In this document: positions 2,190-45,600 of the stretch, one piece after another
Layout: every line of letters starts with the position of its first letter
Numbering within the stretch: position 1 is the first letter of the stretch
Position numbers and translations under genes: made by a program
NCBI GenBank assembly: GCA_002699025.1
Contig: PABA01000228.1
Coordinates: 12,017-58,815 of the forward strand
Direction: 5' to 3'
Origin: Sandaracinus sp.
Lineage (GTDB): Bacteria > Myxococcota_A > Polyangia > Polyangiales > Houyiibacteriaceae
Length of the DNA: 46,799 bases
The notes under the pieces: generated by a model
The model's input: only the letters and a program-made list of their open reading frames with translations
What the model was told of the DNA's origin: nothing
The model's database searches: none

Positions 2190-2195
2190 TAGAGT
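2190..2195 (+). promoter_or_regulatory. -10-like TAGAGT next to the TPR gene start
   Basis: TAGAGT lies 9 nt before the GTG start at 2205, the longest spacer in the leaderless series. A GGGGGA just before the GTG could serve as a closely spaced ribosome site. Confidence 0.4.
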
Positions 2196-2204
2196 GCGGG
2201 GGAC

Positions 2205-5200
2205 GTGGGCAGCAGCGTCCAGGATGTCACCGCCCGTGCGAAGCAGCTGATCTCCGAGCGGAAGTACCGGGACGCCGTACGGGCGTGTCGCCGCGTGCTC
2301 CTCTCGAAGCCCGACGCCGTCCCCGTACGCCTCCTCCTCGCCCAGGCGCTCCTCGCGCTCGGGCGTCACGACGAGGTGCGCATCGAGATGCTCGCGCTCT
2401 CGAAGAAGGCGCCCGACGTCGGCGCGGCCTGGCGCCTCCTCGGGGAGGCCTACATCCGCGGGGGCCAGCCCGACGCGGCCGCCGAGGCCCTGCGCGAGGC
2501 GCTGAAGCTCGACCCGGCCGACGACGAGGCGCGGGATCTCCTCGAGGAGGTCGGCGAGGTCGACGCGCCGCCGAAGATGGAGACCATCGATCGCTGGTTC
2601 GGCGGGGAGCCCACCCACGCCGAGGCGCGCATCGACGAGATCCGCCCGCCGGACGAGCAGGCGCCGCCCGCGACCGGACCCTCCATCGACGCGCCCGCCT
2701 CCGTGGAGCTCGATCCCGAGTTCGAGGCCGAGGCGACCTCCGCCGAGCACGACGTCTCGGGGCTGCCGAGCGCGCCGCCGACCCCGAGCCCCGCCAAGCC
2801 GCGCAAGCGCACGCTCCTCGGCTTGCCCGCCGCGCCGCGCCCCGGCGCCGCGCGTCCGCCGGGCGCCGGGCTCCCCTCGGCGCCGCCGCCCCCCGGGATG
2901 CCGAAGCCCTCGGCGCCGCCGCCTCCCGGGGTGCCGAAGCCCTCGGCGCCGCCCCCTCCCGGGGTGCCGAAGCCCTCGGCGCCGCCGCCCCCCGGCGTCT
3001 CGAAGCCCTCCGCGCCTCCGCCGCGTCACCCGCGCCCGCCGAAGCGCACGGTGATGGGCTTCGGCGCCGCGCCCCCCGCTCCCGCGCCTGCGCCGACCCC
3101 GGCTTCGCCCGGCACCGAGGAGCTCGACCTCGACGAGGCGATGGTGGACGACGGCGGCACCGCCGAGCTCTCCCCCGACGACCTCCTCAGCGCGTCGGGC
3201 ACCTCCCCCCTCTCCACGGACGACCTCGCCCCGATCGACTCGGACCCCTACGCCGACCTCGGCGAGGGGCTGCCGCCGCTCGAGGGGGACGCGACCCAGG
3301 CCCGCGGCGCGGAGGTGGACGACCTCCCCGGCGAGCCCACGCAGGGGCGCCCCCCGGTGCACGACGGCTTCGGCGGCGGCGACGTCTTCGACGAGGGGCT
3401 GCCGCCGCTCGCGGGCGAGGCCACCATGGCCCGCGCGCCCGAGGATTTCGAGGACGAGGGCACGCGCCCGGCCAAGGGGCTCCGCGCCGCGCCGCCGGGT
3501 GCACCGCCCCCCGCGGCCCCGGCCGACTTCGAGGAGGAGACCACCGCGGCGCGGGGGCAGCGCTACGCCGAGGACGACCCCGAGGACTTCGAGACGACGA
3601 CCACGCGCCCCGCCGTCGACGCCGAGTTCCCCTCGGACGAGATCGACACCGGCCTGCCGCCCCTCGAGGGCGAGCCGACCATGGCCCGCCAGCCCCCCGA
3701 GGCGCCCTCCCTGCCCGGCCTCGGCGCCCCGAACGGCTTCCGCCCGAGCGCCACGCCCCAGCCCGCCGGCGCGCCCGCCCCGGCGGCGTCCGTCTCGCCC
3801 CCGGCCGGCGCCCTCCCCGCCGCGACGCCCGCCGACACGCGCGCCGCCCGGCCCACGGCGAAGACCGACGAGATGGACGCGACGCGCGGCGCGGGGCCCC
3901 CCGGGCGCACCGTGAAGCTCGGCCGCTTCCAGCTCTCGCTCCCGGTGCTCGTCGCCCTCGCCGGCGTGCCCGTCCTCCTGATCGTCGCCATCGTCGCGGG
4001 CGTCCACGCCTACCTCGGGGGCCAGGCCGAGGAGGCCATCGCCGCCGCCGCCGCGCAGGCTTCGCAGGACGGCCTCGAGAGCTCGCTCCGCGCCGCCCTC
4101 GAGCTGGACGCCGAGGAGCGCTCGGACGACGGGCCCGCCGTCGCCCGCCGCGCGCGCCTCTACGCCATGGCGGCCCACGACCACGGCTTCCAAGAGACCG
4201 AGCGCGCGCTCGCCCTGCTCGACTCGCTCGACACGGAGGGGCTCGGCTCGGCGGACGCGAAGGTCGCCCAGGTCTACCTCGCCCTCGAGGCCGGCCGCCC
4301 CCGCGACGCCGCGGACACGGCGCTGCTCCTCGACGGCACAGCCCTGGACGGAGAGGCCGGCTACGCGCGCGCTCTGGCCGCCTACGCGCGCGGCGAGCTC
4401 GAGCGGGCCGAGGTCGAGTCGGGCGCGCTCATGGAGATCCAGGGGCAGAGCCCGCGCTACGCCGCGCTCCGGGCGCGCATCCTCGCCGAGAGCGAGCAGA
4501 TCGCCGACGCCCTCGCGACGCTCCAGGCGCTCCCGAACCTGGCGCGCTCGCCGGTGGCGCGCCTCGCGAAGGCGCGGGTCCACGTCCTCGCCGAGCAGCC
4601 GCAGGAGGCCCTCGAGGAGACGGCGGCGCTCCTCGAGGAGCTCGGCTCGGCGCTCAGCGCCCGCCAGCGGGCCTTCGCGCTGCTCAGCCGGGCGGAGGCG
4701 TCGCTCCAGGCCGGGCAGCGCGAGCAGGCGGCGGCGCTCGCCGAGGAGGCGACGAACGGCCGGCCGACCGGAGACGAGTCCTTCGGGCTCCGCCTCGCCG
4801 AGCTCCAGCTCCGCCTCGGCGCGCTCGACGCCGCCCGGAACCTCCTCGAGGCGCTCCCGGAGGAGCGCGCCCGCCCCGCGCAGCATGCGCGCGTCGCCGC
4901 CGAGATCCACCTCGCGGCCGGCGACCTCGCCGCCGTCGAGGAGGTGCTCGAGCGCGCTGGCGAGACGCCCCAGACCGCCTACCTCCACGGCCGCCTCGCG
5001 GAGGCCCGCGGCGACGGCGAGGAGGCCGAGCGCCAGTACCGGACCGCGGCCGAGGAGCCCTCCGAGTACGTGCGGGCGACGGCGCGGCTGGGCGTGCTGG
5101 CGCTCCGCGAGGGCGAGGCGGAGCAGGCCATCGAGGTGCTCGAGCCGGCGCGCGCGCAGGCCCCCGGGCACGCCGAGATCGTGCCGGCGCTGATCGAGGC

Positions 5201-6239
5201 CTACCTCGAGGAGGACCAGCTCGACGAGGCGGCGCGGGTCGCGACGGAGGCGCTCGAGGCGCGGCCCGAGGCGGCCGAGCTGCTCATCGCCAAGGGGCGC
5301 GTGGACCTCGCGCGGGGCGAGGTGGACGCGGTGCTCGCGGCGCTCGCGCCCCTCGTGGACCAGCGCCCGGAGGACGCGGACCTGCACGCGATGATCGGCG
5401 AGGCGGCGCGGCGGAAGGGCCAGGCGGAGCGCGCGAACGCGGCCTTCGACCGGGCGCTCGCCGTGGACGCGACGCAGCGCACGGCGCTCCTCGGCAAGGC
5501 CCTGGTCGCCCTCGACGCCGGCGACGTGGAGGCGGCGCAGGAGGCGATCACGAAGGCGCGCGAGGGGCGCGTGGGGCGGCGCACGGTGGCCGTGCTCGAG
5601 GCGCGGCGGCTGGTGCTCGAAGGCATCGGCAACGAGGCGGCGCGTCAGCTCCGGCGGCTGGTGCGGCGCTCGCGGGACGCGGACCTCTGGGCGGCCTACG
5701 GGCGGGCGCTCGCGCAGGCGGAGAGCGACCGGGCGGCGGAGAACGCCTTCGAGCGGGCGCTCCGCTACGACGAGGATCAGGTCGAGGCGCACCTCGGGCT
5801 GGCGCTCGTGCGCACGCGGCGCGGCGCGCTCTCGGGGGCGGCGAGCGCCATCGGCGAGGCGGCGCGGGTCATCGACGCCAAGGAGCTGGGGTCGCGCTGG
5901 GAGGCGCGGCTCCTCGCGGCGCGCGGGCGGCTGCTCTTCGAGAACGGCGCCTTCGGTGACGCCGAGCGCAAGGCGCGGGAGGCCCTCGAGAAGGACGAGG
6001 ACTGCGCCGAGGCGCACCTGCTGCTCGCGGTCATCGCCGACGCGCAGGGCGGCGATCCGGTGCCCGAGCTGCGGCGCGCGCTGGCGGCGCGCTCGCCGGC
6101 GCCCGAGGTGCTCGGCCAGCTCGTGATCTTCGACCGGCGCGCGGACGATCGCTGCGAGCTCGCGCAGCGCTACATGCGGGCCGCGCCCCGGGGCATCGAC
6201 GCGCGCGACGTGCGGGCCGTGGCCCGCCGCTGCCGGTGA
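2205..6239 (+). CDS. large single-TM TPR-repeat protein
   Basis: 1344 aa, no recognised gene name. Residues about 1-110 are TPR-like helical repeats (e.g. LGEAYIRGGQPDAAAEALRE). Residues 110-575 are a long disordered linker, with four PSAPPPPG(V/M)PK-type units near 220-282 and an acidic Thr-rich stretch in which GLPPL(E/A)G(D/E).T.AR recurs near 354, 398 and 482. One transmembrane helix lies at about 579-599 (LPVLVALAGVPVLLIVAIVA). Residues 605-1344 are a long TPR solenoid. The protein is therefore likely a membrane-anchored scaffold with TPR modules on both sides; which side is cytoplasmic is inferred (N-terminus, no signal peptide). GTG start chosen because the frame opens there, right after a -10-like element. 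Two long overlapping frames in the same stretch are composition artefacts. Confidence 0.85.
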   Translation: MGSSVQDVTARAKQLISERKYRDAVRACRRVLLSKPDAVPVRLLLAQALLALGRHDEVRIEMLALSKKAPDVGAAWRLLGEAYIRGGQPDAAAEALREALKLDPADDEARDLLEEVGEVDAPPKMETIDRWFGGEPTHAEARIDEIRPPDEQAPPATGPSIDAPASVELDPEFEAEATSAEHDVSGLPSAPPTPSPAKPRKRTLLGLPAAPRPGAARPPGAGLPSAPPPPGMPKPSAPPPPGVPKPSAPPPPGVPKPSAPPPPGVSKPSAPPPRHPRPPKRTVMGFGAAPPAPAPAPTPASPGTEELDLDEAMVDDGGTAELSPDDLLSASGTSPLSTDDLAPIDSDPYADLGEGLPPLEGDATQARGAEVDDLPGEPTQGRPPVHDGFGGGDVFDEGLPPLAGEATMARAPEDFEDEGTRPAKGLRAAPPGAPPPAAPADFEEETTAARGQRYAEDDPEDFETTTTRPAVDAEFPSDEIDTGLPPLEGEPTMARQPPEAPSLPGLGAPNGFRPSATPQPAGAPAPAASVSPPAGALPAATPADTRAARPTAKTDEMDATRGAGPPGRTVKLGRFQLSLPVLVALAGVPVLLIVAIVAGVHAYLGGQAEEAIAAAAAQASQDGLESSLRAALELDAEERSDDGPAVARRARLYAMAAHDHGFQETERALALLDSLDTEGLGSADAKVAQVYLALEAGRPRDAADTALLLDGTALDGEAGYARALAAYARGELERAEVESGALMEIQGQSPRYAALRARILAESEQIADALATLQALPNLARSPVARLAKARVHVLAEQPQEALEETAALLEELGSALSARQRAFALLSRAEASLQAGQREQAAALAEEATNGRPTGDESFGLRLAELQLRLGALDAARNLLEALPEERARPAQHARVAAEIHLAAGDLAAVEEVLERAGETPQTAYLHGRLAEARGDGEEAERQYRTAAEEPSEYVRATARLGVLALREGEAEQAIEVLEPARAQAPGHAEIVPALIEAYLEEDQLDEAARVATEALEARPEAAELLIAKGRVDLARGEVDAVLAALAPLVDQRPEDADLHAMIGEAARRKGQAERANAAFDRALAVDATQRTALLGKALVALDAGDVEAAQEAITKAREGRVGRRTVAVLEARRLVLEGIGNEAARQLRRLVRRSRDADLWAAYGRALAQAESDRAAENAFERALRYDEDQVEAHLGLALVRTRRGALSGAASAIGEAARVIDAKELGSRWEARLLAARGRLLFENGAFGDAERKAREALEKDEDCAEAHLLLAVIADAQGGDPVPELRRALAARSPAPEVLGQLVIFDRRADDRCELAQRYMRAAPRGIDARDVRAVARRCR

Positions 6240-6300: not shown

Positions 6301-8652
6301 ATGAGCGAGGCGACGGTGGAGACGCGGCGCGTCTTCCTGCTCGGGCGGGAGAGCTGGCCGGGGCGCGACGGCTGGGACGTGCGCTGGTGGGGGCGGGCCG
6401 AGGACGGACCGGTGATGCTCCGGCTGCCGCCACAGGAGGCGGTCTTCTTCGTTCCGCGCGGCGTGGCGACGGAGGCGGGGCGCCGGCGCCCCGTGGAGCT
6501 CCGCACGCTGCGCGGCGAGCCCGTGGACGCCGTCTACTTCACGGACCGGCGCACCTGGAAGCGCGAGGCGCGCCGCCTCCGGGACGCCGGCACGCCCGCC
6601 TGGGAGGACGACGTGAAGCCGGCGGACCGCTACCTCATGGAGCGCTTCGTCACCGCCGGCGCGCGCGTCCGCGGCCGGGCCCACCGCGACCACGGCGTGC
6701 TGATCTTCGACGCCCCGCACGTGGAGCCCGCCGAGGTCGCGCCCGCGCTCCGGGTCGCCTCCTTCGACGTCGAGTCCGAGGGCCTCGAGGGCCCGCTCAT
6801 CAGCGTCGCCGTCGTCGAGGGCGAGAAGGAGCACGTCTTCGTGCGCGACGAGGGCGGCGCCGGCGCCCGCCGCCTCGCCCTCCGCCCGCCGCCGAAGGCC
6901 GAGGTGGCCCTCTATCCGGACGAGCGCAGCACCCTCGCCGCCTTCCTCGCCTGGGTGCGCCTCAGCGATCCGGACGTGCTCATCGGCTGGAACTGCATCG
7001 ACTTCGACCTCGCCTACCTCGAGGCCCGCTGCCGCGCCCACGGCCTCCCCTTCCGCCTCGGCCGCGCCGGCGGCGTGGCCACCGTCCTCGGCGGCGGCGA
7101 TCGGCAGGCGGCCTCGGTCGCGCGCGTGCCGGGGCGCGTCGTCCTCGACGGCATCGCCACGCTCCGCGCGGCCACCTGGAGCTTCGAGCGCTGGGGCCTC
7201 GAGCACGTCGGCCAGGCGCTCCTCGGCCGCGGCAAGGCCCTCGAGCCGACCGGCGACGCCCTCGCCGAGATCCTCCGCCTCTACCGCGAGGACCTCCCGG
7301 CGCTCGTCGAGTACAACCTCGAGGACTGCCGCCTCGTGCGCGACATCTTCGCCGAGGCCCAGCTCCTCGAGTTCGCCGTCGAGCGCCAGCGCCTCACGGG
7401 CCTGACCCTCGACCGCCGCGCCGGCGCCGTCGCCGCCTTCGACCACCTCTACCTGCCGCGCCTCCACCGCGCCGGGCGCGTGGCGGCGAGCGTCGGCACC
7501 AACCCCGAGCCCATCCGGAGCCCCGGCGGCTATGTCCTCGACTCGCAGCCCGGGCTCTACGAGAACGTGCTCGTCCTCGACTTCAAGAGCCTGTACCCGA
7601 GCCTGATCCGCACCTTCCGCGTGGACCCGCTCGGCCTCGCCGAGGGCCTCGAGGCGGGCGCGGGCGTGGAGGGCTTCGGGCAGGCGCTCTTCGATCGCGA
7701 GACGCACATCCTCCCGGCGCTCATCGAGGAGCTCTGGGCGGCGCGGGACGCGGCGAAGAAGAAGGGCGACGCGGCGCTCTCGCGGGCGATCAAGATCCTC
7801 ATGAACAGCTTCTACGGGGTGCTCGGGACCCCCGTGAGCCGCTTCTACGATCCGCGGCTGGCGAGCTCGATCACGCTGCGCGGGCACGAGGTGCTGCAGC
7901 GGAGCCGGGGGTGGATCGAGGCGAAGGGGTGGCGCGTCATCTACGGCGACACGGACTCGCTCTTCGTGCTCCTCGGGCCCGAGCACGGGGGCGCGGCGGC
8001 GAAGGCGATCGGGGCCGAGCTGGCGGCGGGGCTGAACGGCTGGTGGGCCGAGACCGTGCGCGCGGAGCATGGCGTGGAGAGCCGGCTCGAGGTGGAGTTC
8101 GAGACGCACTACGCGCGCTTTCTGATGCCGACCATGCGGGGCTCGACGACCGGCTCGAAGAAGCGCTACGCGGGGACCATCGAGGGGGCGGGGGCGGGGG
8201 TCGGTGAGGGGACGCGGCTGGTGTTCAAGGGGCTCGAGGCCGTGCGGACCGACTGGACGCCGCTCGCGCGCCGCTTCCAACGCGAGCTCTTCCGGCGGGT
8301 CTTCGCCGGGGAGCCCTACGCCGAGTGGGTGCGGCGGCTGAGCGGGCAGCTCTTCGAGGGCGAGCTCGACGGGGAGCTCGTCTACCGGAAGCGGCTCCGG
8401 CGCGACCTCGGGAGCTACGCCGAGCAGGGCGCGCCGCCGCACGTGGTGGCCGCGCGGCAGCTCGAGCGGCCGGGGCGCGAGGTCGAGTACGTGATCACGA
8501 CCCACGGCCCGCAGCCCATCGGCCGGGTGAGCGCGCCAATCGACTACGCCCACTACATGCAGAAGCAGCTCGCGCCGGCGGGCGACACCATCCTCCACTT
8601 CCTCGGCGAGAGCGTGGAGCACCTCGGCGGCCGCCAGCTCAGCCTCTTCTGA
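6301..8652 (+). CDS. polB: DNA polymerase II (family B)
   Basis: 783 aa, the same length as E. coli Pol II. The 3'-5' exonuclease motifs are present: Exo I SFDVESEG (about 153-160), Exo II IGWNCIDFDLAYLEAR (about 228) and Exo III YNLEDCRLVRD (about 338). The polymerase motifs follow: A DFKSLYPSLIR (about 427), B KILMNSFYGVLG (about 498), C YGDTDS (about 548) and KKRYAG (about 620). All catalytic Asp/Glu residues are in place, so an active proofreading repair or translesion polymerase is expected. GGGGGAGG ends 2 nt before the ATG, a tight Shine-Dalgarno. I see no LexA-like palindrome in the 60-bp gap after the TPR gene, so SOS control is not supported here. Confidence 0.95.
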   Translation: MSEATVETRRVFLLGRESWPGRDGWDVRWWGRAEDGPVMLRLPPQEAVFFVPRGVATEAGRRRPVELRTLRGEPVDAVYFTDRRTWKREARRLRDAGTPAWEDDVKPADRYLMERFVTAGARVRGRAHRDHGVLIFDAPHVEPAEVAPALRVASFDVESEGLEGPLISVAVVEGEKEHVFVRDEGGAGARRLALRPPPKAEVALYPDERSTLAAFLAWVRLSDPDVLIGWNCIDFDLAYLEARCRAHGLPFRLGRAGGVATVLGGGDRQAASVARVPGRVVLDGIATLRAATWSFERWGLEHVGQALLGRGKALEPTGDALAEILRLYREDLPALVEYNLEDCRLVRDIFAEAQLLEFAVERQRLTGLTLDRRAGAVAAFDHLYLPRLHRAGRVAASVGTNPEPIRSPGGYVLDSQPGLYENVLVLDFKSLYPSLIRTFRVDPLGLAEGLEAGAGVEGFGQALFDRETHILPALIEELWAARDAAKKKGDAALSRAIKILMNSFYGVLGTPVSRFYDPRLASSITLRGHEVLQRSRGWIEAKGWRVIYGDTDSLFVLLGPEHGGAAAKAIGAELAAGLNGWWAETVRAEHGVESRLEVEFETHYARFLMPTMRGSTTGSKKRYAGTIEGAGAGVGEGTRLVFKGLEAVRTDWTPLARRFQRELFRRVFAGEPYAEWVRRLSGQLFEGELDGELVYRKRLRRDLGSYAEQGAPPHVVAARQLERPGREVEYVITTHGPQPIGRVSAPIDYAHYMQKQLAPAGDTILHFLGESVEHLGGRQLSLF

Positions 8653-8741: not shown

Positions 8742-8747
8742 TAGGCT
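8742..8747 (+). promoter_or_regulatory. -10 element TAGGCT, leaderless arrangement
   Basis: TAGGCT, then 6 nt, then ATG at 8754. The expected transcription start falls on the start codon. No Shine-Dalgarno precedes the ATG. Confidence 0.55.
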
Positions 8748-8753
8748 CTCGCC

Positions 8754-9834
8754 ATGGTCGCAGGTGACGAGCTCGATGACATCGCGTCCATCCGCGAGCG
8801 GCCGGGGATGTTCGTCGGCGACGTGAGGACCCGCTCGGCCACGCACCAGCTGGTCTGGGAGGTGCTCGCGAACGCCGTCGACGAGCACCTGGCGGGGCGC
8901 TGCACGCGCATCGAGCTGACGCTGCACGCGGATGGCTCCGTGTCGGTCCGCGACGACGGCGCCGGCATCTCCCTGGACGTCGACGAGAGTGGGACTCCTT
9001 GGGTCGAGCGGGTGCTGACCACGCGCCACTTCACGGCGACCGCGGACGGGCACGCGCCGCACGTGCACCTCCGGCCTTCCCACCACGTCGGGCTGTGCAT
9101 GGTCTCGGCGCTCTCGTCCTCGCTCTCGGCGGAGGTGCGGCGCGACGGCGAGGCGTGGCGCATCGAGCTGGAGCGCGGCCGCATCCGTTCCCCCCTCGCG
9201 AAGATCGGGGACGCCGACACGACGGGGACCACGCTGCGCTTCACGCCGGACGCGGAGGTCTTCGCGAGGCCGGACCGAGGTGGAAGCGATGGCCCGGCGC
9301 GTCCGCGAGCTCGCCGCCCTGCTCCCCGGGCTCGTCACGCGCTTCTCCTGCGAAGGCCACGAGTGGGGGCGCGACGCCGGCATGGAGCAGCTCCTCGAGA
9401 GCTCCGACCATGCCCGCGTCCACGAGCGGCCGGTCACGGGCGAGGCGCGCCAGGGCGACGCCCGGGCCCGCGTCGCCTTCGAGTGGCGCGACTGGCCCCC
9501 TGCGCCGCGGATCCTCGGCTACTGCAACCTCGACCCGGCCCACGCGGGGACGCACATCGAGGGCTTCCGCCGGGGCCTCGCCGAGGGCCTCGGTCGGCGC
9601 GATCCGGGTCGCGTCTTCGAGGCGCTCTCGGGGGGCCTGGCCGCCGTCGTCTCGGTGCTCGTCATCGACCCCGAGTACCAGGGCCCCACCCGCGAAAGGA
9701 TCGGCTCGGAGGAGGCGCGCGCCGTCGTCGCGGAGGCGACGGCGAAGGCACTGCGGCGCGCCCTCGCGTCGGACCCGGAGCTCGCGAGGCGCATCACCGC
9801 GCGGCTGGAGCGCGTCCCGGAGGCGAAGCCATGA
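8754..9834 (+). pseudogene. TOPRIM-less GyrB/ParE-like ATPase-transducer, frameshifted
   Basis: The first part (8754 to about 9270) is a GHKL ATPase domain of GyrB type: RPGMFVGD, WEVLANAVDEHLAG (catalytic-Glu helix with its Asn) and VRDDGAGI. The second part, in the +1 frame from about 9271 to 9834, is the GyrB transducer domain: TEVEAMARRVRELAALLPG, THIEGFRRGL and GLAAVVSVLVIDPEYQGPT. One surplus base around 9262-9280 splits them; removing it gives about 359 aa. Two key sites deviate: the GLHGVG ATP-lid motif reads PSHHVG, and the QTK transducer loop reads PTR. No TOPRIM or DNA-binding domain follows. Frame 0 stays open to 10424, but its middle section is Arg/Pro-rich nonsense. Either a recent inactivation or a sequence error; the function of a solitary domain is unknown. 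Confidence 0.7.
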
Positions 9835-9955
9835 GCCGCGCGGCCGTGCTCGCGGGCCGCTTCGACGCGCGCGAGGGCGCCGAGCTGCGGGGGCGCGGCC
9901 TCGGCGACGCCCGACCCTCGCGCGGCGCTCCGGGTGGATCGACGACCGACGCGCG

Positions 9956-9961
9956 TATCCT
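9956..9961 (+). promoter_or_regulatory. -10 element TATCCT, leaderless arrangement
   Basis: TATCCT followed by 7 nt and the ATG at 9969. It supports the internal ATG as the real start of the lipoprotein. Confidence 0.5.
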
Positions 9962-9968
9962 CCGGCGG

Positions 9969-10424
9969 ATGAGCCTCTCGGCGTTCCGAACGGCCCGGCT
10001 GGCGCGCGCGTCCGCCGCCGCGATCGTCTCCCTCCTCCTGGCGTGCGGCGCGGCGGCGCCGACCTACCCCACCGAGGTCGTCGCCACGCCGGCGCCGACG
10101 GGCGGGGAGGAGGTCGCGGTGCACGAGGTGCGGGTCCTGCCCTCGGACGTCTCGCCCGGCTTCCGCGTGATCCGCGAGGCGGACGAGCTGGTGATCGTCG
10201 TCTCCGCGGGCATGGGCTCGGGCGACTCGATGCGTGTCGTCGGGGCCCGCTCGGTGGACGGCGTGCTCCACGTCGAGGTCCTCCACACCCTCCTCGGCGA
10301 GGGCTGCCCGAGGCTGGCGAGCGAGGAGTGGATCGGCCAGGTCGTCACCATGGCGCGCCGCGACGAGCCGGTGACGATCCACGTGACCCGACGCCGCGAC
10401 CCGCCCTGTGACGATCGGGGGTAG
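9969..10424 (+). CDS. small lipoprotein of unknown function
   Basis: 151 aa. An Arg-containing n-region (MSLSAFRTARLARA), a hydrophobic core and the lipobox LLLACG predict a lipoprotein with a mature chain of about 120 aa. The mature part (VAVHEVRVLPSDVSPGFRVI...) matches no family I know. The frame is open further upstream, and an ATG at 9831 overlaps the GyrB-like stop as ATGA, but that start would bury the signal peptide behind 46 residues. ATG 9969 with TATCCT 7 nt before it is preferred. Confidence 0.7.
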   Translation: MSLSAFRTARLARASAAAIVSLLLACGAAAPTYPTEVVATPAPTGGEEVAVHEVRVLPSDVSPGFRVIREADELVIVVSAGMGSGDSMRVVGARSVDGVLHVEVLHTLLGEGCPRLASEEWIGQVVTMARRDEPVTIHVTRRRDPPCDDRG

Positions 10425-10518: not shown

Positions 10519-11529
10519 ATGGAGTATCGATTTCTGGGGAACACGGGCCTGCGCGTCTCCGAGCTCTGCCTCGGGTGCATGACCTTCGGCCAGGGCTTCT
10601 TCGGCATCGGCGAGGTCGAGCAGGAGGGCGCGACGGAGCTCGTGAAGCGGGCCCTCGAAGGCGGCATCAACTTCTTCGACACGGCCGACATCTACAGCCT
10701 CGGCCAGTCCGAGACGCTGCTCGGGGGGGCGCTGAAGGCGCTCGGCACGGACCGGGACTCGGTGGTCATCGCGACCAAGGTCCGGGGAGGCATGAACCCG
10801 GAGGGGCAGAGCGATCCGAACAACGTCGGGCTCTCCCGCAAGCACATCATCGCCGGCTGCGAGGCGAGCCTGAAGCGCCTCGGCACGGATCACATCGACC
10901 TCTACCAGATCCACGGCCCGGACCCGCGCACGCCCCTCGAGGAGACCATGCGCGCCCTCGAGGATCTCGTGCGCCAGGGCAAGGTCCGGTACGTGGGCTG
11001 CTCGAACCTCCCGGCCTGGCAGATCATGAAGGCGAACGGGCTCGCGGGATCCGGCGCGGCCTTCGTCTCGCTCCAGGCCTACTACTCGCTGCTCGGCCGG
11101 GAGCTCGAGCTCGAGCTCGTCCCCATGTGCCGGGACCAGGGCCTCGGCATCATGGTCTGGTCCCCGCTCGCCGGCGGCTTCATCACCGGCAAGTACCGCC
11201 GCGATCAGGAGGACCCCGAGGGCTCCCGCCGCACCACCTTCGACTTCCCGCCCGTGGACAAGGAGAAGGGCTACGACGTCGTGGAGAAGCTCGACGCCCT
11301 CGCGAAGGCGAAGGGCTCGACCATCCCGCGGCTGGCGCTCTCGTGGGTGCTGAAGCAGCCCGGCATCAGCTGCGCCATCATCGGCGCCAAGCGCATGAGC
11401 CAGCTCGAGGACAACCTGCTCGCCGTCGACGTGGAGTGGAGCGAGGAGGAGCTCGCGGAGCTCGCCGAGCTCACGGCCCTGCCGAACCTCTACCCCCACT
11501 GGATGCTCGCCAACTTCGCTCGCGCCTGA
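10519..11529 (+). CDS. aldo/keto reductase
   Basis: 336 aa NAD(P)H-dependent oxidoreductase of the aldo/keto reductase TIM-barrel family. The tetrad is visible: D54 and Y59 in FFDTADIYSLGQSE, K87 in VIATKV and H132 in LYQIHGPD. The C-terminal cofactor part has WSPLAGGFITGKY and CAIIGAKRMSQLEDN. The sequence resembles the YajO/IolS-type subgroup; substrate unknown. The start is fixed by GGGGAG six bases upstream of ATG 10519; a longer frame from 10408 only adds Arg/Pro-rich residues. A 13-bp GGCTTCGGCGGAC tandem (about 11541-11575) follows the stop. Confidence 0.93.
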   Translation: MEYRFLGNTGLRVSELCLGCMTFGQGFFGIGEVEQEGATELVKRALEGGINFFDTADIYSLGQSETLLGGALKALGTDRDSVVIATKVRGGMNPEGQSDPNNVGLSRKHIIAGCEASLKRLGTDHIDLYQIHGPDPRTPLEETMRALEDLVRQGKVRYVGCSNLPAWQIMKANGLAGSGAAFVSLQAYYSLLGRELELELVPMCRDQGLGIMVWSPLAGGFITGKYRRDQEDPEGSRRTTFDFPPVDKEKGYDVVEKLDALAKAKGSTIPRLALSWVLKQPGISCAIIGAKRMSQLEDNLLAVDVEWSEEELAELAELTALPNLYPHWMLANFARA

Positions 11530-11619: not shown

Positions 11620-11625
11620 TACCTT
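11620..11625 (+). promoter_or_regulatory. -10 element TACCTT, leaderless arrangement
   Basis: TACCTT, 6 nt, ATG at 11632. It argues against the GTG at 11617, which would lie upstream of the -10. Confidence 0.55.
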
Positions 11626-11631: not shown

Positions 11632-12399
11632 ATGCGCCAACGCTTCGGTCGGGCCGTCCACGAACACCGCGCTTGCTGGGTCCGCGAGGACGAGGCGGGG
11701 CGCTGGGCCATCCTCTCGGCGGCGCCCTGGGCGCGCGGCGAGCCCACGGGGGACTTCGTCTCCGGCGACCACTTCCTCGCCCCCGTGCGTCCGGGGAAGA
11801 TCGTCTGCGTCGGGCGGAACTACCGCGCGCACGCCGCCGAGCTCGGCCACGACGTGCCCAGCGAGCCGCTGATCTTCCTCAAGCCGTCGACCGCGATCGC
11901 CGGGCCCCACGACGCCATCGAGCTGCCGGCGGCGAGCGAGCGCGTCGAGCACGAGGCGGAGCTCGGCCTGGTGATCGGGAAGTGGATCCGCGACGACACG
12001 CTCGAGGAGGCGCGCGCGGCGCTCTTCGGGCTGACCTGCGTGAACGACGTCACGGCGCGGGACATCCAGCGCGCGGAGGGGAAGTTCACGCGCGCGAAGG
12101 GCTTCGACAGCTTCTGCCCCGTCGGCCCGCACATCGTCACCGGCGTCGATCCGCTCGACCTCGAGGTGCGCTGCACGGTGAACGGCGAGGAGCGCCAGCG
12201 CGGCCGCACCTCGGACATGGTCTTCGACCCCTACGCGCTCGTGCTCTTCATCAACTCGGTGATGACCCTCGAGCCCGGCGACCTGATCGCCACCGGCACC
12301 CCCGCCGGCGTCGGACCGCTCGTCGACGGGGACTCGGTCACCGTCTCCATCGAGGAGGTCGGCGAGTTGACGAGCCGCGTGCAGGAGCGCGGCTACTGA
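11632..12399 (+). CDS. fumarylacetoacetate hydrolase family protein
   Basis: 255 aa. The FAH fold is shown by VCVGRNYRAHAAELG, FLKPSTAI, the metal ligands in VEHEAELGLVIGK (E106, E108, E110 region) and D139 in CVNDVTARD, plus ATGTPAGVG near the C-terminus. Members of this size are usually acylpyruvases, oxaloacetate decarboxylases or 2-hydroxyhepta-dienedioate isomerases rather than true tyrosine-pathway FAH. A link to the distant hpd gene is therefore not implied. The stop codon overlaps the convergent ATPase gene by 7 bp. Confidence 0.9.
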   Translation: MRQRFGRAVHEHRACWVREDEAGRWAILSAAPWARGEPTGDFVSGDHFLAPVRPGKIVCVGRNYRAHAAELGHDVPSEPLIFLKPSTAIAGPHDAIELPAASERVEHEAELGLVIGKWIRDDTLEEARAALFGLTCVNDVTARDIQRAEGKFTRAKGFDSFCPVGPHIVTGVDPLDLEVRCTVNGEERQRGRTSDMVFDPYALVLFINSVMTLEPGDLIATGTPAGVGPLVDGDSVTVSIEEVGELTSRVQERGY

Positions 12400-17571: not shown

Positions 17572-17577
17572 TACCTT
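17572..17577 (+). promoter_or_regulatory. -10 element TACCTT, leaderless arrangement
   Basis: TACCTT, 7 nt, ATG 17585; same hexamer as before the FAH gene. Confidence 0.55.
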
Positions 17578-19863: not shown

Positions 19864-19869
19864 TAGCCT
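19864..19869 (+). promoter_or_regulatory. -10 element TAGCCT, leaderless arrangement
   Basis: TAGCCT, 6 nt, ATG 19876; no Shine-Dalgarno. Confidence 0.55.
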
Positions 19870-22869: not shown

Positions 22870-23094
22870 TCAGTCGCCGCCGGTGCGGATGGCGGCGGCG
22901 ATCTCGTCGGGGGAGAGGTCCTCGCCGTCCGCGACGATGCAGCTGATGCGGCCGATCTCGGCGAGGGCGGCGCGGGCGCGGGCGCGCTCGGCCGGGTCGA
23001 CGGCGCCGAGGCCGCTCGGGTGGGCGGCGAGCCAGGCGGCGGCGAGGTCTTTGAAGAGGTAGACCCGGTTCTCGATCGTGGAGTCGTCGGCCAT
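22870..23094 (-). CDS. small conserved-looking 74-aa protein
   Basis: MADDSTIENRVYLFKDLAAA... ends in SPDEIAAAIRTGGD. It is soluble, acidic and helical, with Cys at about residue 52 (GRISCIVADGEDLSPDEI). Codon use and a clean promoter, TACCCT exactly 6 nt upstream of ATG, support a real gene despite its size. It is divergent from the glycosyltransferase gene. No function recognised. Confidence 0.65.
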   Translation of the reverse strand: MADDSTIENRVYLFKDLAAAWLAAHPSGLGAVDPAERARARAALAEIGRISCIVADGEDLSPDEIAAAIRTGGD

Positions 23095-23100: not shown

Positions 23101-23106
23101 AGGGTA
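23101..23106 (-). promoter_or_regulatory. -10 element TACCCT, leaderless arrangement
   Basis: On the minus strand TACCCT, 6 nt, ATG 23094. Confidence 0.55.
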
Positions 23107-30397: not shown

Positions 30398-30874
30398 TCA
30401 GCCGCGCTGGTAGGTGCCGACGAGCCGGTTCATGCCGATCACGTTCGGCTCGATCTTCTCGAGGAGCTGCCAGAGCGTCAGGCCCTCCTCGAAGCTCGTC
30501 TCCGTGTCGAGGGCGAGCACCCAGAAGTAGTAGTGGTGCACGCCGTGGCCCTCGGGGGGCATGGGGCCGCCGTAGCCGGGCTTGCCGAAGTCGGCGACGC
30601 CGCTCGTCCCCTCGCTCGTGCCCTCCTCGAGGCTCGTGACGGAGGCGGGCAGGTTGTAGAGGACCCAGTGCACGAAGCCGTAGGTGTTCCCCTTCAGCAG
30701 CGGCGCGTCGGGGTCGTGGCAGATGATCGCGTAGCCCTTGGTGCCCTCGGGGGCGCCCTTCCAGCTCAGCGCGGGCGAGACGTCCTCGCCCTCGCCGGTG
30801 TGCTTCTTCGGGATGGCGCCGTGGTTGTCGAAGGCGCTCGAGGTCAGCTGCATGTCGGAAAGCGCAAAGCCCAT
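30398..30874 (-). CDS. YbhB/YbcL-type PEBP (Raf kinase inhibitor-like) protein
   Basis: 158 aa. The phosphatidylethanolamine-binding protein fold is shown by SPALSWKGAPEGTKGYAI, CHDPDAP, FVHWVLYNLP, and HHYYFWVLALDTE near the C-terminus. The DPDAP and HW motifs build the anion-binding pocket. No signal peptide, so cytoplasmic. AAAGGAG 8 nt before ATG 30874 decides the start over 30904. The cellular role of bacterial members is not established. Confidence 0.92.
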   Translation of the reverse strand: MGFALSDMQLTSSAFDNHGAIPKKHTGEGEDVSPALSWKGAPEGTKGYAIICHDPDAPLLKGNTYGFVHWVLYNLPASVTSLEEGTSEGTSGVADFGKPGYGGPMPPEGHGVHHYYFWVLALDTETSFEEGLTLWQLLEKIEPNVIGMNRLVGTYQRG

Positions 30875-37317: not shown

Positions 37318-38133
37318 TCAGCCGCTCGCGGCGAGCTGCCGGCAGGTCTCCTCGGTCGTCGCGTCGAGGGGGAAGTAGCTCTCGATCTGGAGCTCCTCGA
37401 GAGTGACGTTCATCGGGCCGTTGAAGACGGTGACGGTGGTGAGGAAGCCGGCCTCGAGCTCGCCGCGGCGGAGGCGGAGCGTGATGGTCGCGCCGGGGGG
37501 CACGGAGAAGTCCGGCTGGCGCCAGCTCTCCGGGACGCCCGGCTGCGCGAGGACCGCGTCGAGGAGGGCGGCGAGGCGCTCGTCGTGGCGCCGGTGGAGG
37601 ACCTCGCGGTGGAGCCGGCTGAGGAGGGCGTGGGCCTGGCGCTCCCAGTCGACGACGAAGGGCCGGAGCTGCGCCGGGTCGAAGACCGCCTTCAGCGCGT
37701 TCGGGGTCGGGCCGAGGGCGGTGGGGTCGGCGAGGAAGGCGCCGAGGAGCGCCTGGGCGCCGTGGTTCATGCGGAGCAGATCGTAGGCGCCGTTCATGAC
37801 GATCATCGGGTAGGGCTCGTGCACGGCGAACATGCGCTCGACGGCCTGGCCGATGGGCCCGGCGAGGGCCTCCTCGACCGTGGGCTGGCCGTAGGCGCTC
37901 TCGAAGCCGGCGGCGACGAGCATCTCGTTCTGCTCGCGGAGCGGGACCTGCATGGTGGTGGCGAGGCGGAGGACCATGTCCTCGCTCGGCTGGGCGCGGC
38001 CGGTCTCGAGGAAGCTGACGTGGCGGGAGGAGACGTCGGCGGCGAGGGCGAGGTCGAGCTGGCTCATGCCCCGGCGGCCGCGCCAGTGGCGGAGCAGGGC
38101 GGAGAAGAGGCCGGGGGAGCGGTCGTCTGCCAT
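37318..38133 (-). CDS. XRE family regulator with MmyB-like sensor domain
   Basis: 271 aa. N-terminal helix-turn-helix: LRHWRGRRGMSQLDLALAADVSSRHVSFLETGRAQPSEDMVLRLA. The remainder is an MmyB-type ligand domain (PAS-like; HEPYPMIVMNGAYDLLRMN, VFDPAQLRPFVVDWE, TVFNGPMNVTLEELQIESYFPLD), a group known in some actinobacteria to bind lipid-like ligands. It is divergent from the four-gene fatty-acid-modifying operon and is a natural candidate to regulate it (inference). A leaderless promoter, TACCCT 7 nt upstream of ATG, fixes the start. Confidence 0.9.
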   Translation of the reverse strand: MADDRSPGLFSALLRHWRGRRGMSQLDLALAADVSSRHVSFLETGRAQPSEDMVLRLATTMQVPLREQNEMLVAAGFESAYGQPTVEEALAGPIGQAVERMFAVHEPYPMIVMNGAYDLLRMNHGAQALLGAFLADPTALGPTPNALKAVFDPAQLRPFVVDWERQAHALLSRLHREVLHRRHDERLAALLDAVLAQPGVPESWRQPDFSVPPGATITLRLRRGELEAGFLTTVTVFNGPMNVTLEELQIESYFPLDATTEETCRQLAASG

Positions 38134-38140: not shown

Positions 38141-38146
38141 AGGGTA
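38141..38146 (-). promoter_or_regulatory. -10 element TACCCT, leaderless arrangement
   Basis: On the minus strand TACCCT, 7 nt, ATG 38133. Confidence 0.55.
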
Positions 38147-40622: not shown

Positions 40623-41410
40623 GCGCGGCGGCGCCCGAGCCCGTCGAGCTCTACGAGGGCACGGTCCGGCACCGGCGCCGCGCCCCGACGCGCCACGCCT
40701 TCACCTACCGGGTCGCCTTCCTGCACCTCGACCTCGACCGGCTGGAGCGGCTCGGCGCGTGGCCGCTCTTCGGGACCGACGCCCCGGCCCTCGTACGCTT
40801 CCGCCGGGAGGATCACCTCGGCGACCCGGAGCGGCCCCTCGCGGAGAGCATCCGGGAGCTCGTCGGAGAGCGCCGCGGCGTGCGCCCCGAGGGGCCGGTC
40901 ACGCTCCTGACGCAGCCCCGGGCCTTCGGCCTGAGCTTCAACCCGGTGAGCTTCTTCTACTGCTGGGACGCCGCGCGGACGCGGCCGACGCACCTCGTCG
41001 CCGAGGTGGACAACACGCCCTGGGGGGAGCGGCACGTCTACGTCGCGGACGTCGCCCTCGCCGCGCGCGGCGCGGGCGCGCCCATGGCCTTCCGGGTCCC
41101 GAAGCGCTTCCACGTCTCGCCCTTCCACGGCATGGAGCAGACCTACGAGTGGCGCTTCACGGTGCCCGGACGGAGCCTCGTCGCCCACATGGAGAACTGG
41201 GAGGACGGCGAGCTGCTCACGGACGCCACGCTCGTGCTCCGCCGCCAGCGCTGGGGCGCCGCCGCCAAGGCGCGGCTGCTGCTCCTCTACCCCTTCGGCC
41301 CGGCGCGCGTCCTCGCCGGGATCTACCGCGAAGCCTTTCGCCTCTGGCGAAAGGGCACGCCCTATCACCCTCACCCCGCGAAGCTCCGCGAGCGGACCGA
41401 GCGACCATGA
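40619..41410 (+). CDS. DUF1365 family protein
   Basis: 263 aa. Family hallmarks: LYEGTVRHRRRAPTRHAFTYRV at the start, LLTQPRAFGLSFNPVSFFYCWD in the middle, HLVAEVDNTPWGERHVYV, and KRFHVSPFHGMEQTYEWRF. A hydrophobic stretch near the end (ARLLLLYPFGPARVLAGIYR) may touch the membrane. Biochemical function not established; its fixed partners are the flavin enzyme and CFA synthase seen here. ATGA overlaps at both ends. Confidence 0.92.
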   Translation: MSAAAPEPVELYEGTVRHRRRAPTRHAFTYRVAFLHLDLDRLERLGAWPLFGTDAPALVRFRREDHLGDPERPLAESIRELVGERRGVRPEGPVTLLTQPRAFGLSFNPVSFFYCWDAARTRPTHLVAEVDNTPWGERHVYVADVALAARGAGAPMAFRVPKRFHVSPFHGMEQTYEWRFTVPGRSLVAHMENWEDGELLTDATLVLRRQRWGAAAKARLLLLYPFGPARVLAGIYREAFRLWRKGTPYHPHPAKLRERTERP

Positions 41411-42663
41411 CGACGAGCCTCCTCCCCTTCCCCCGCACCGCCGGCCCCTCCCTCCCCACCCGCCTCGCGCGCCGGCTGGTCTTCGAGCGCCTCGCGGGCC
41501 TGAGCCGGAGCCGCCTCGTGATCGAGGAGCCCACCGGCACGCGCACCTTCGGCCCGCCCGAGGCGCCGACCTTCGTCGTGCGCGTACACGACCCGGAGGC
41601 CTGGCTGCGCATGGCCCTCGGGGGCAGCCTGGGGGCCGGCGAGGCCTACGTGGAGGGGCTCTGGGACGCGGACGATCTGGTCGGGGTGGTCTGCGCGCTC
41701 GCCGGGGAGGTCGCGAAGATGAGCGCCCTCGACGGCGGCCGGCTCACCGCCCTGCGCAAGCCCCTCGACGCGGTGCTGCACGGCCTGAGGCGAAACAGCC
41801 GGGAGGGCAGCCGCAAGAACATCGCCCGCCACTACGACCTCGGGAACGACTTCTTCCGCCTCTGGCTCGACGAGGCGACGATGATGTACTCGGCGGCGCG
41901 CTTCGAGCGGGAGGGGATGACCCTCGAGGAGGCGCAGCTCAGCCGGCTCGAGCGGATCGGCCGCCAGCTCGAGCTCGGCCCGGAGGACCACCTCCTCGAG
42001 ATCGGCACCGGCTGGGGTGGCCTGGCGGTGCATGCGGCGCGCACGACCGGCTGCCGCGTCACGACGGCGACCATCTCGAAGGAGCAGCACGCGCTGGCCG
42101 TGGAGCGGGTCCGCGCGGCCGGCCTCGAGGACCGCGTCGAGGTGCTCCTCCGGGACTACCGGGACCTGGAGGGCCGCTACGACAAGGTGGTCAGCGTCGA
42201 GATGATCGAGGCGGTCGGCGCGGAGTTCCTCGAGACCTACTTCGCGAAGGTCGGCGAGCTCGTGCGGCCGGAGGGCCTGGTGCTGATCCAGGCGATCACC
42301 ATCCCGGACGCCGGCTACGAGCGCGCCGTGAAGAACGTCGACTTCGTGAAGCGCTACATCTTCCCCGGCGGCCAGTGCCCGAGCCTCGCCGCCATGAGCG
42401 GCGCGTGGAGCCGGACCACGGACCTCCGGCTGCTGCACCTCGAGGACTTCGGCGAGGGCTACGCCGAGACCCTGCGCTGCTGGCGCGAGCGCTTCGAGGC
42501 GCGGCTCCCGGAGGTGCGCGCCTTCGGCTACGACGAGGCCTTCATCCGCCTCTGGCGCTTCTACCTCGCCTACTGCGAGGGCGGCTTCCGGGAGCGCCAC
42601 TGCGGCGTCGTCCAGATGCTGCTCGCCGGCCCCGACGCCCGCGTCCGCCCGCGCCCCGCCTGA
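41407..42663 (+). CDS. cfa: cyclopropane-fatty-acyl-phospholipid synthase
   Basis: 418 aa, full family length. N-terminal lipid-binding domain (residues 1-130; MALGGSLGAGEAYVEGLWD) and C-terminal SAM methyltransferase: NIARHYDLGNDFFRLWLDEATMMYSAARF, LLEIGTGWGGLAVHAA, SKEQHALA, SVEMIEAVG, and KRYIFPGGQCPS. It would add a methylene or methyl group from SAM to unsaturated acyl chains of phospholipids. Last gene of the operon, followed by a hairpin at 42691. Two CFA-type methyltransferases in one operon suggest consecutive or alternative modifications. Confidence 0.93.
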   Translation: MTTSLLPFPRTAGPSLPTRLARRLVFERLAGLSRSRLVIEEPTGTRTFGPPEAPTFVVRVHDPEAWLRMALGGSLGAGEAYVEGLWDADDLVGVVCALAGEVAKMSALDGGRLTALRKPLDAVLHGLRRNSREGSRKNIARHYDLGNDFFRLWLDEATMMYSAARFEREGMTLEEAQLSRLERIGRQLELGPEDHLLEIGTGWGGLAVHAARTTGCRVTTATISKEQHALAVERVRAAGLEDRVEVLLRDYRDLEGRYDKVVSVEMIEAVGAEFLETYFAKVGELVRPEGLVLIQAITIPDAGYERAVKNVDFVKRYIFPGGQCPSLAAMSGAWSRTTDLRLLHLEDFGEGYAETLRCWRERFEARLPEVRAFGYDEAFIRLWRFYLAYCEGGFRERHCGVVQMLLAGPDARVRPRPA

Positions 42664-42763: not shown

Positions 42764-45586
42764 TCAGCGCGCTCTCGGTCGCTCGATGCGGTCCGCGCAG
42801 CGGGCTTCGTCGGCCTGCCCGGAGCGGGCGCCCACGAGGCCCGAGAAGGTCCCCCCTCTCGCGCGGGGGAAGCGGCAGGCGCAGAACTCGCCGTCCCAGC
42901 CGCGCCAGGCGCAGGACCAGCCGAGCTGCTCGGCGTCGGCGCAGCAGGTGTGACACGCCTCCTCGGAGCCGGCCGTGCGGTGGCAGCGCGTCGCGAGCCC
43001 GTCGCCCAGGCTCACGGCGGACGGATCGACCCCGGGCGCCACGCTCGAGAGCGCCTCCGCGTCGAAGCGGCCGCCGGCGCGCAGGAAGCCACGGACCTGC
43101 CGCAAGCGCGGCGCGGTGACGGCGACCCCCTCGGGCGCGCCGAGCTCGAGGTCGCCTTCGACCTCGCGGAGCGCGGGCAGGGACGCCGGCGAGGCGAGCG
43201 CCCCGAGGTGGAGACGCAGGTCGCCCGCGACCTCGGCCAACGCCCCGAAGGCCGCGAAGGTCGCGAGCTCGGGGGCGCCGTCGACGTAGACGCCGTCGGC
43301 GGTGGACAGCGCGTCGAAGCCGCGGAGCGCCACGAGCGACGGCGTGTCGGCGACGACGACGTGCCGGGCGGAGGCGAGGGCGCGGAAGCCGGTGAGGCGC
43401 TCGAGCTCCGGGACCCGCTCGACGTGGAGCGAGCCATCGATGGCCTCGAGGGCGCCGAACCCCTCGATGGAGCGCAGGCGCTCGAGATCGGTGATCCAGA
43501 TCGGCCCGCCGACGCGCTCGAGCGCGGGGAAGGGCCCGAGGGACTCCAAGGTCGCGTCGTCGTCGATCCGGACGCGGCCGCCGACCTCGCGGAGCCGGGG
43601 CAGCTCGACGCGCTCGACGGCGCGATTGCGGCGGACCGTCAACGAGCCGTCGACGCGCTCGAGGGCCGGGAGGCTCAGCGCCAGCAGGTCGTGGCTGGCC
43701 ACGACCTCCAGGTCACGCCCGATCACCCGCAGACCGGTCAGCGCGCCGGTGTCGATGGCCCCCTCGGCCCGGACCACGTTCAGGTGCTCGACCCGCTCCA
43801 GGCCCGCGAGCCCGCTCAGGTCCGCGGGCCGCTCGAGCCAGAGCGCGCGGGCGTAGCGGATGCGCGACAGCGGGCTCAGGTCGACGGCAGCCGCCTCGAT
43901 CTCGAGGGAGCCGTCGATCCACTCGCAGCCGCGCTCGACGAGGTAGGCGACGTCCTCGTTCCGGCTCACGCGGCGAGGGCCACAGCGCGTGTGGCCGTCG
44001 ATGTACCGCTCGACCTCCGCGACGCGGGCCCGAGGGACGACGGTGATCCGATGCTCCCCGGTGAAGACGACGGTCCCGTCCGCCGTCACCGATGGGGGCG
44101 CCACCGCGTCGGCGCGCCTGGGGAGGTCGACCCGGGCCCGGAGCGCGCCCTCGGCTCCGTGGATCCACAGCTGCTTGGCCGAGGTCATCGCGTAGACGTC
44201 GCCGCCCGGTCCGAGGGCGAGCCCCCCGATGACCCCGTCCCCGAGCTCCCGGCGCCAGAGCTCCTCGCCCTCGAGGTCGACCGCGACGACGACGCCGTCC
44301 CGGTTCGAGGCGTAGACGCGGTCGGCGGCGGCGACCGGTCGCTCGAGCACGCCGATCCAGTCGCCCAGGTCGACGCGCCAGCGCTCGGCGCCGTCCGCGC
44401 GCCCGACGGCGACGAGCACCCCGCTCCGGGCGGCGACGAGCACGAGGTCCTCGCCCGCGAAGGTGACGTCGGTGAGCGGTCCCGCGCCGAGGTCCGTCCG
44501 CCAGCGCTCGCGTCCATCGCTCGGGTCGAGGGCGACCACCGCCGACGCGCCCTCGCCGGGTTCTTCGGGATCCCACGAGCTGAGGACCACCGCTCCGTCC
44601 TCGTCCACGAGCGGCGCCGTGGCCAGCGCGCCGGGCAGGTCCGCGCTCCAGCCGAGCGCTCCGTCGGGCTCGAGCGCGACCAGGGAGGCCTCGCCTCCTC
44701 GCGTGGCGTTCACCGGCACGAAGATCGCCGACGAGGTCAGCGCGGCGGCCGCGGCGACGGGACCATCGAGGCGGCGGCGCCAGCGCGTCCGGCCGTCCGT
44801 GTCGAGACGGGCGAAGGTGCGGGGGCCGTCGGCGCCGTAGATGGTCCCGTCGGCGGCGACCACGGGCTGCGGTCGGCGCCGCCGGTAGCGCGCGGAGCCT
44901 GCGGGGGCGCCGCCCGCGCCAGCCGCCCCACCACCGCCGAGCGCTCGGAGCAGGCTGGCCCGGCGTACGGCCTCGAGGGCCTTGGAGCGTGCGGCGCGCT
45001 GGGCTGCTCCGGTCGAGCTGGCGGAGCCGGACCGAGAGGAGGCGCCGAGGGGCTCGACGTCGCGGGCCTGCTGTTCCCAGCGGACCTCGCCGTCGAGGTC
45101 GTAGGCCCTCAGACCGTCCGGCCCGGAGACGACCAGCGCGCCCTCGTCACCGGCCGGCGCCGGTGGGCCGATGCGGGGCGCTGGCCACGGCGTGCGCCGA
45201 CCGGCCGCGCTGCCGACGATCGCGAGGACGTCGCCGCCGCGCCGCCGCTCCCGGGGCGGCCAGGCGTGGATCGCCCGCGTGTCCGCGCCGACCATGCGCA
45301 GGGCGCCGGTGCGCCGGGGGCCGCCGCCGCCGGCGGGCCATCGGGCGTCTTCGGGGTGGCCCGCGGGGGCGAGCTGCGGCTGGGCCAGCGCGGTCAGATC
45401 GCGGGCTCGGTCCGCGGCGGCGTCCTCGTCGGCGGCCTCGGGCGCCGTCTCTTCGGCGTCCTCCGTCGGGGCTGCGGGCGGAACGATCGGGGTCGGGGAC
45501 GGGACCGCCGGGGGCTCATCCGAGCTCGTGGAGGCCCCGCAGGCCACGGAGACTCCGACGAGCCCCAGGAGAAGCAGGCAACGCAT
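42764..45586 (-). CDS. lipoprotein with PQQ beta-propeller and L-domain repeats
   Basis: 940 aa. The signal peptide MRCLLLLGLVGVSVAC has lipobox VSVAC, followed by a Pro/Ala/Glu linker. Residues about 140-540 are PQQ-type propeller blades (GLRAYDLDGEVRWEQQ, GWSADLPGALATAPLVDEDG, LDPSDGRERWRTDLG, VAVDLEGEELWRRELG), interrupted near 185-245 by a Gly/Ala/Ser/Arg-rich insert. Residues about 580-860 are receptor L-domain-like leucine-rich repeats (LPALERVDGSLTVRRN, GFGALEAIDGSLHVERVPELERL). The last 80 residues hold a Cys cluster (CHTCCADAEQLGWSCAW...CAC). Probably extracellular or periplasmic, for ligand or surface recognition; exact role unknown. ATG 45586 is preferred, with TAGGGT 8 nt upstream. 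Confidence 0.85.
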   Translation of the reverse strand: MRCLLLLGLVGVSVACGASTSSDEPPAVPSPTPIVPPAAPTEDAEETAPEAADEDAAADRARDLTALAQPQLAPAGHPEDARWPAGGGGPRRTGALRMVGADTRAIHAWPPRERRRGGDVLAIVGSAAGRRTPWPAPRIGPPAPAGDEGALVVSGPDGLRAYDLDGEVRWEQQARDVEPLGASSRSGSASSTGAAQRAARSKALEAVRRASLLRALGGGGAAGAGGAPAGSARYRRRRPQPVVAADGTIYGADGPRTFARLDTDGRTRWRRRLDGPVAAAAALTSSAIFVPVNATRGGEASLVALEPDGALGWSADLPGALATAPLVDEDGAVVLSSWDPEEPGEGASAVVALDPSDGRERWRTDLGAGPLTDVTFAGEDLVLVAARSGVLVAVGRADGAERWRVDLGDWIGVLERPVAAADRVYASNRDGVVVAVDLEGEELWRRELGDGVIGGLALGPGGDVYAMTSAKQLWIHGAEGALRARVDLPRRADAVAPPSVTADGTVVFTGEHRITVVPRARVAEVERYIDGHTRCGPRRVSRNEDVAYLVERGCEWIDGSLEIEAAAVDLSPLSRIRYARALWLERPADLSGLAGLERVEHLNVVRAEGAIDTGALTGLRVIGRDLEVVASHDLLALSLPALERVDGSLTVRRNRAVERVELPRLREVGGRVRIDDDATLESLGPFPALERVGGPIWITDLERLRSIEGFGALEAIDGSLHVERVPELERLTGFRALASARHVVVADTPSLVALRGFDALSTADGVYVDGAPELATFAAFGALAEVAGDLRLHLGALASPASLPALREVEGDLELGAPEGVAVTAPRLRQVRGFLRAGGRFDAEALSSVAPGVDPSAVSLGDGLATRCHRTAGSEEACHTCCADAEQLGWSCAWRGWDGEFCACRFPRARGGTFSGLVGARSGQADEARCADRIERPRAR

Positions 45587-45594
45587 CGTCGCCG

Positions 45595-45600
45595 ACCCTA
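45595..45600 (-). promoter_or_regulatory. -10 element TAGGGT, near-leaderless arrangement
   Basis: On the minus strand TAGGGT, 8 nt, ATG 45586. Confidence 0.5.

Follow-up and report, generated by a model that had tools for sequence, protein, structure and literature searches.

A stretch of the genome of Sandaracinus sp. (GCA_002699025.1) carries hexamers of the form TANNNT a few nucleotides ahead of the start codons of many of its genes, raising the question of whether these genes are transcribed from the start codon itself, as leaderless mRNAs. The window, that is, the whole stretch of DNA analysed, is 46,799 nucleotides long (G000:C1:12017-58815) and belongs to an assembly of 9.24 Mb in 238 contigs. 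We find that leaderless transcription of the sigma70 type is the best explanation and, judging from sequence, a very probable one. Ten sites in the window would function as -10 elements of housekeeping (sigma70/sigmaA-type) promoters, from which RNA polymerase would initiate at the start codon or no more than about 3 nt away from it. The resulting mRNAs would be leaderless and translated without a Shine-Dalgarno (SD) site, while SD sites would serve operon-internal genes and others in this genome that do have leaders. Three parts of this explanation are inferred: where transcription starts, which sigma factor is used and that translation proceeds from the 5' end.

The initial annotation of the window had pointed to nine TANNNT hexamers lying 9, 6, 7, 6, 7, 6, 6, 7 and 8 nt before start codons. 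All nine are present at these gaps, among 33 TANNNT in total on the two strands, and a tenth, TACCGT, had been overlooked. The ten candidate -10 boxes and the genes that they precede are as follows.

2190-2195 (+): TAGAGT, gap of 9 nt to GTG 2205; TPR-repeat protein, 2205-6239
8742-8747 (+): TAGGCT, gap of 6 nt to ATG 8754; GyrB-like ATPase, frame broken near 9275
9956-9961 (+): TATCCT, gap of 7 nt to ATG 9969; lipoprotein-like, 9969-10424, no Pfam match
11620-11625 (+): TACCTT, gap of 6 nt to ATG 11632; FAA hydrolase, 11632-12399
17572-17577 (+): TACCTT with extended -10 TGG, gap of 7 nt to ATG 17585; lipoprotein-like, 17585-18427
19864-19869 (+): TAGCCT, gap of 6 nt to ATG 19876; lipoprotein-like, 19876-21210
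23101-23106 (-): TACCCT, gap of 6 nt to ATG 23094; 74-aa protein, 22870-23094, weak RskA_N match under the cut-off
28124-28129 (-): TACCGT, the tenth box, gap of 7 nt to GTG 28116; TetR-type regulator, 27469-28116
38141-38146 (-): TACCCT, gap of 7 nt to ATG 38133; HTH plus MLTR_LBD regulator, 37318-38133
45595-45600 (-): TAGGGT, gap of 8 nt to ATG 45586; lipoprotein-like PQQ/beta-propeller protein, 42764-45586

An eleventh TANNNT within gaps 6-9, at 37785(-) with a gap of 9, is internal to the MLTR gene and seems to be a chance match. The box genes were said to mostly lack a Shine-Dalgarno; an SD core 3-12 nt upstream is found in none of the ten. Four other genes, starting at 10519, 30093(-), 30874(-) and 32533(-), had been named as SD genes, and SD-like sequence indeed lies upstream of all four.

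10519-11529 (+): aldo/keto reductase, SD-like sequence upstream
28936-30093 (-): weak nitroreductase match, SD-like sequence upstream
30398-30874 (-): PBP family, SD-like sequence upstream; a TANNNT lies further upstream at 30908(-), as in a leadered gene
30974-32533 (-): MopE-type metal-binding repeats, SD-like sequence upstream; a TANNNT lies further upstream at 32557(-)

For seven of the ten box genes the start codon has support that is independent of the motif. Lipoprotein-type signal peptides, read by eye, begin exactly at the linked start at 9969, 17585, 19876 and 45586, and Pfam matches begin close to the N-terminus at 2205 (TPR-type, from residue 7), 8754 (HATPase, from residue 30) and 38133 (HTH, from residue 10). 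The starts at 8754 and 9969 share one open frame (ORF 8754-10424) and look like two genes, the first of them GyrB-like with a frame break near 9275. This GyrB-like gene, 8754-9834, runs in two frames, with HATPase in the frame of 8754 and DNA_gyraseB in the frame of 9280-9834; the break could come from a sequencing error or a real frameshift, or mark a pseudogene. Next to it, at 6301-8652, this bacterial genome has a gene for a family-B DNA polymerase. Genes were called with a 3-periodic Markov model that is blind to upstream motifs, yielding 31 genes in the window. Four of the ten box-linked starts were not chosen by this caller, which set two of them, 2205 and 45586, at later codons downstream and overlooked the other two, 8754 and 9969; a leaderless model is advisable when gene starts are called in genomes of such type.

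Is the pattern a property of the genome? A genome-wide positional peak of TANNNT had been set beforehand as one of two tests, and it is present in the 1.55 of 9.24 Mb of the window's own genome that were sampled (GC 0.74), turning an observation on nine genes selected by eye into a genome-wide statistic. Among the 1115 complete starts given by the motif-blind caller in this sample, TANNNT stands at gaps 6, 7, 8 and 9 of 72, 33, 18 and 18 starts, together 141 genes or 12.6%; the peak is at gap 6, placing the first T at -12, and gaps 14-60 hold about 2 TANNNT per position. Shuffling of the upstream 60 nt with dinucleotides kept (20 rounds) left on average 6.55, and never more than 12, starts with TANNNT at gaps 6-9, versus the 141 observed, and 20,270 internal in-frame ATG/GTG codons gave 10 matches. 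When any ATG or GTG near the called start is allowed, the layout is seen in 185 of the 1115 genes, about 14.6% net, compared with 6 when gaps 0-3 are taken instead and 19-26 for each of seven control windows between gaps 12 and 51. Genes of the putatively leaderless kind amount to about 13-15%, roughly one in seven. Across the whole genome TANNNT-N6-ATG occurs 278 times versus 38 for the frame-matched TANNNT-N3-ATG; against a reversed-pattern control, which occurs 81 times, the excess is smaller. Scaled by the share of ATG genes at gap 6, the excess over N3 gives an estimate of about 940 of about 6,700 genes. The same peak appears in 0.80 Mb of G187, a genome of the same family, where gaps 6, 7, 8 and 9 hold 42, 18, 7 and 10 of 621 starts.

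We find that TANNNT and SD are nearly exclusive of each other. Of the 1115 starts, 133 have TANNNT only (gaps 5-9), 398 have SD only, 12 have both and 572 have neither (odds ratio 0.13, Fisher p 9e-17). This near exclusivity supports the two translation-initiation classes that had been suggested from the window; the 572 starts without either signal are presumably in part misassigned or preceded by weaker SD sites. Starts within 20 nt of a gene on the same strand number 2 of 128 among TA genes versus 141 of 393 among SD genes, a count based on gene spacing. An intact anti-SD was read in the 16S rRNA of G187 alone, the 16S of the own genome being incomplete in the assembly and a 16S being found in one of the three relatives searched.

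Promoter-like marks surround the boxes at positions that were not used in selecting the sites. Counted from the T of TA, there is an excess of T at -23 and -22 (chi-square 31.7 and 26.5), where the TT of a TTGACA box would lie at a spacing of 17 nt, and of T at -3 and G at -2 (chi-square 46.3 and 30.2), as in an extended -10. A TT at 17 nt is carried by 14 of 141 leaderless-type sites versus 1 of 275 TANNNT within genes, and the TG of an extended -10 by 27 of the 141, a minority, versus 5 of the 275. The initial annotation saw no shared -35; this holds for single sites, none of the ten in the window having a good -35 (best match 3 of 6 or less), but not for the pooled genome-wide set, in which a weak TT emerges at 17-nt spacing. 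One of the ten window sites, 17572-17577, has the extended -10. Other intergenic TANNNT carry the marks at intermediate rates (TT 24 of 472, TG 38 of 472), and TANNNT lying 14-80 nt ahead of other starts are marked in a similar way, TT being most frequent there at 18 nt (12 of 120). Because other intergenic TANNNT carry them too, at lower rates, the marks indicate a promoter and are by themselves no proof of leaderlessness; for that, the indication is how close the box lies to the start codon. C immediately precedes the start codon in 75% of the 133 TA genes versus 58% of the 398 SD genes, an excess that fits what would be expected if the purine of the start codon were +1.

Three other readings have to be weighed. 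TANNNT might not be a promoter element but a signal for translation, lying in the leader of the mRNA and contacting the ribosome or S1 in a non-SD manner. That SD and TANNNT are alternatives would suit such a signal, and the consulted part of Nakagawa 2017 states that AT-rich biases at about -20 to -10 of non-SD genes may reflect either S1 binding or a Pribnow box. Yet TT at 17-nt spacing and the TG of an extended -10 suit RNA polymerase and not the ribosome, the same marks accompany TANNNT further upstream of leadered starts, and a two-part TA...T with its first T fixed at -12 is the -10 described in the accessible text of Zheng 2011. We consider a translation signal very improbable.

The boxes could also be real promoters while many of the mRNAs carry short leaders and begin translation at start codons further downstream, in which case the assigned starts would be wrong. 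The motif-blind caller lends this some credit, having shifted two of the linked starts downstream and missed two more. It is nevertheless very improbable in view of the four signal peptides that begin at the linked start and the three domains that begin within the first 30 residues, and the sharp peak at gap 6 requires the start codon as its reference. Finally, both motif and genes were chosen by eye in the initial annotation, and the nine boxes might be chance matches; from the genome background about 0.23 sites would be expected at gaps 6-9 for 32 genes and ten are seen, and nearly all of the sequence behind the genome-wide peak lies outside the window, so that chance is hardly conceivable. 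Leaderless transcription from sigma70-type promoters thus stays the preferred reading.

Leaderless TANNNT genes are already known in bacteria, and this genome is a further case. In the accessible portion of Zheng 2011 (PMC3160421), TANNNT about 12 bp upstream, counted from its first T, is the -10 box of bacterial leaderless genes, and delta-proteobacteria with leaderless genes are given as 8 of 33 genomes, with a mean of 15.8% (5.7-20.6). As far as that portion goes, the genes studied here resemble its TA-led genes in the first T at -12, in their share of about 13-15%, in rarely having an SD on the same gene and in their single or first-gene position, here judged by their scarcity behind close same-strand genes. 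Unlike the present case, a later metagenome-type assembly, Myxococcota are not named in that portion, and the weak -35 at 17 nt and the extended -10 measured here go beyond it. An excerpt on Deinococcus-Thermus (PMC12340547) describes a -10 region adjacent to ORFs and, in Deinococcus, TANNNT that was mutated and tested as a leaderless promoter; the same TANNNT by the start, beside an SD-type motif, is found here, whereas the phylum differs and the excerpt gives about 30% of ORFs. According to an extract of PMC9581028, citing Lomsadze 2018, GeneMarkS-2 has a leaderless class, making leaderless transcription a standard class of gene finders. PMC3898074 reports a leaderless transcriptome for Mycobacterium tuberculosis, based on mapped transcription start sites, and names TANNNT; genome-wide use of leaderless genes is common to both cases, with start sites mapped there and deduced here. 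In open-licence literature, searched by titles and the beginnings of abstracts, nothing was found on leaderless genes of Myxococcota or myxobacteria. For Myxococcus xanthus there is a genome-wide map of transcription start sites, obtained by Cappable-seq (PMC8844925; data in E-MTAB-11042), the word leaderless being absent from the part of the text consulted; that map would permit a direct test within the phylum.

How widespread is the layout in the phylum? Among 188 of its genomes, TANNNT-N6-ATG exceeds the N3 control at z above 5 in 87, and in 31 z is below 2 or there is no excess. The leaderless habit therefore varies greatly within one phylum, and the causes of its gain and loss are open to comparative study. 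The own genome ranks 4th of the 188 by the N6/N3 ratio (7.3) and 64th by excess per Mb. Spearman correlation with background density is -0.82 for the ratio and 0.01 for the excess per Mb; since the ratio falls with background density, ratios are unfit for comparing genomes of different base composition.

Conservation of the layout was also examined gene by gene. Comparison with G187 by 46 reciprocal best hits (1.55 Mb of the own genome versus 0.80 Mb of G187) gave the layout in 2 of 5 partners of layout genes versus 9 of 41 of the rest, no significant difference in this small sample (p 0.58). For the FAA hydrolase, TANNNT at gaps 6-9 of a nearby start was found in 6 of 29 other loci (3 among the 4 closest homologs). 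For the HTH-MLTR_LBD regulator the layout is found in 19 of 26 testable loci of relatives, 3 of 30 having been dropped where a BLAST match was absent at the limit used. Among named genomes it is found in 57 of 78 loci versus 1-7 of 78 in seven control windows; 2 of 80 loci were dropped as lacking a start candidate, many of the genomes are MAGs, and the named and relatives' sets overlap in part. Grouped by record title, the layout precedes the regulator as follows.

Myxococcota: 11 of 14
other delta: 6 of 8
Actinobacteria: 28 of 31
beta: 4 of 5
gamma: 3 of 6
alpha: 2 of 4
Cyanobacteria: 2 of 6
others: 1 of 4

A gene-by-gene control within the same loci, from which loci of up to 6 kb and GC bins smaller than 40 kb were excluded, gave the layout for the regulator versus other genes in 10 of 19 versus 17 of 166 other first genes in Myxococcota/delta (p 3e-5), in 18 of 29 versus 48 of 166 other divergent genes in actinobacterial loci (p 0.001) and in 8 of 14 versus 10 of 209 other genes in other proteobacterial loci (p 8e-7). 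Ten proteobacterial genomes have the layout in 12 of 18 regulator copies, all 12 at gap 6; of these 18 copies, 10 are genes already in the named-genome set, and the remaining 8 show the layout in 5 cases. Against a wide claim, 13 of 15 plasmid copies are without it, and the 2 that have it compare with 0-1 in control windows (16 of 60 among 73 matches were examined, one without a start candidate). Of eight plasmid records with upstream annotation, seven copies follow a same-strand gene and one, from Vibrio, is divergent and has the layout. The layout follows the MLTR regulator gene in part of its range, perhaps limited to loci in which the gene is first or divergent. Tentatively, and giving it somewhat less than an even chance, we propose that leaderlessness is a conserved property of HTH-MLTR_LBD regulator genes and not only of genomes, such that these genes, where they stand first or divergent, retain a -10 box imposing leaderless transcription, in Myxococcota and Actinobacteria and in some beta- and gamma-Proteobacteria, including genomes in which few other genes are leaderless. 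No paper joining "leaderless" and "MmyB" was found in the open-licence literature, and the extension of the regulator case to Actinobacteria and some Proteobacteria may be new. If the regulator reading is true, the layout may serve regulation, for instance through a self-repressed promoter overlapping the start codon, and one gene family would be at hand for a direct test of a leaderless advantage.

Some further observations concern the genome and the window. By a simple rule applied to the 1.55 Mb, lipoprotein-type N-termini occur in 35 of 185 TANNNT-layout genes, compared with 34 of 390 genes with SD and 61 of 540 that have neither signal, so that the layout genes look richer in them. CarD-type factors aid the opening of weak promoters in other bacteria; the PF02559 CarD/TRCF domain has three matches in the whole genome (contigs C71, C187 and C39). 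The MLTR regulator gene at 38133(-) is divergent to a gene at 38365(+) with a cyclopropane-fatty-acid-synthase-type (CMAS) domain, the spacer between the two is rich in TANNNT, and a second CMAS gene lies at 41407-42663.
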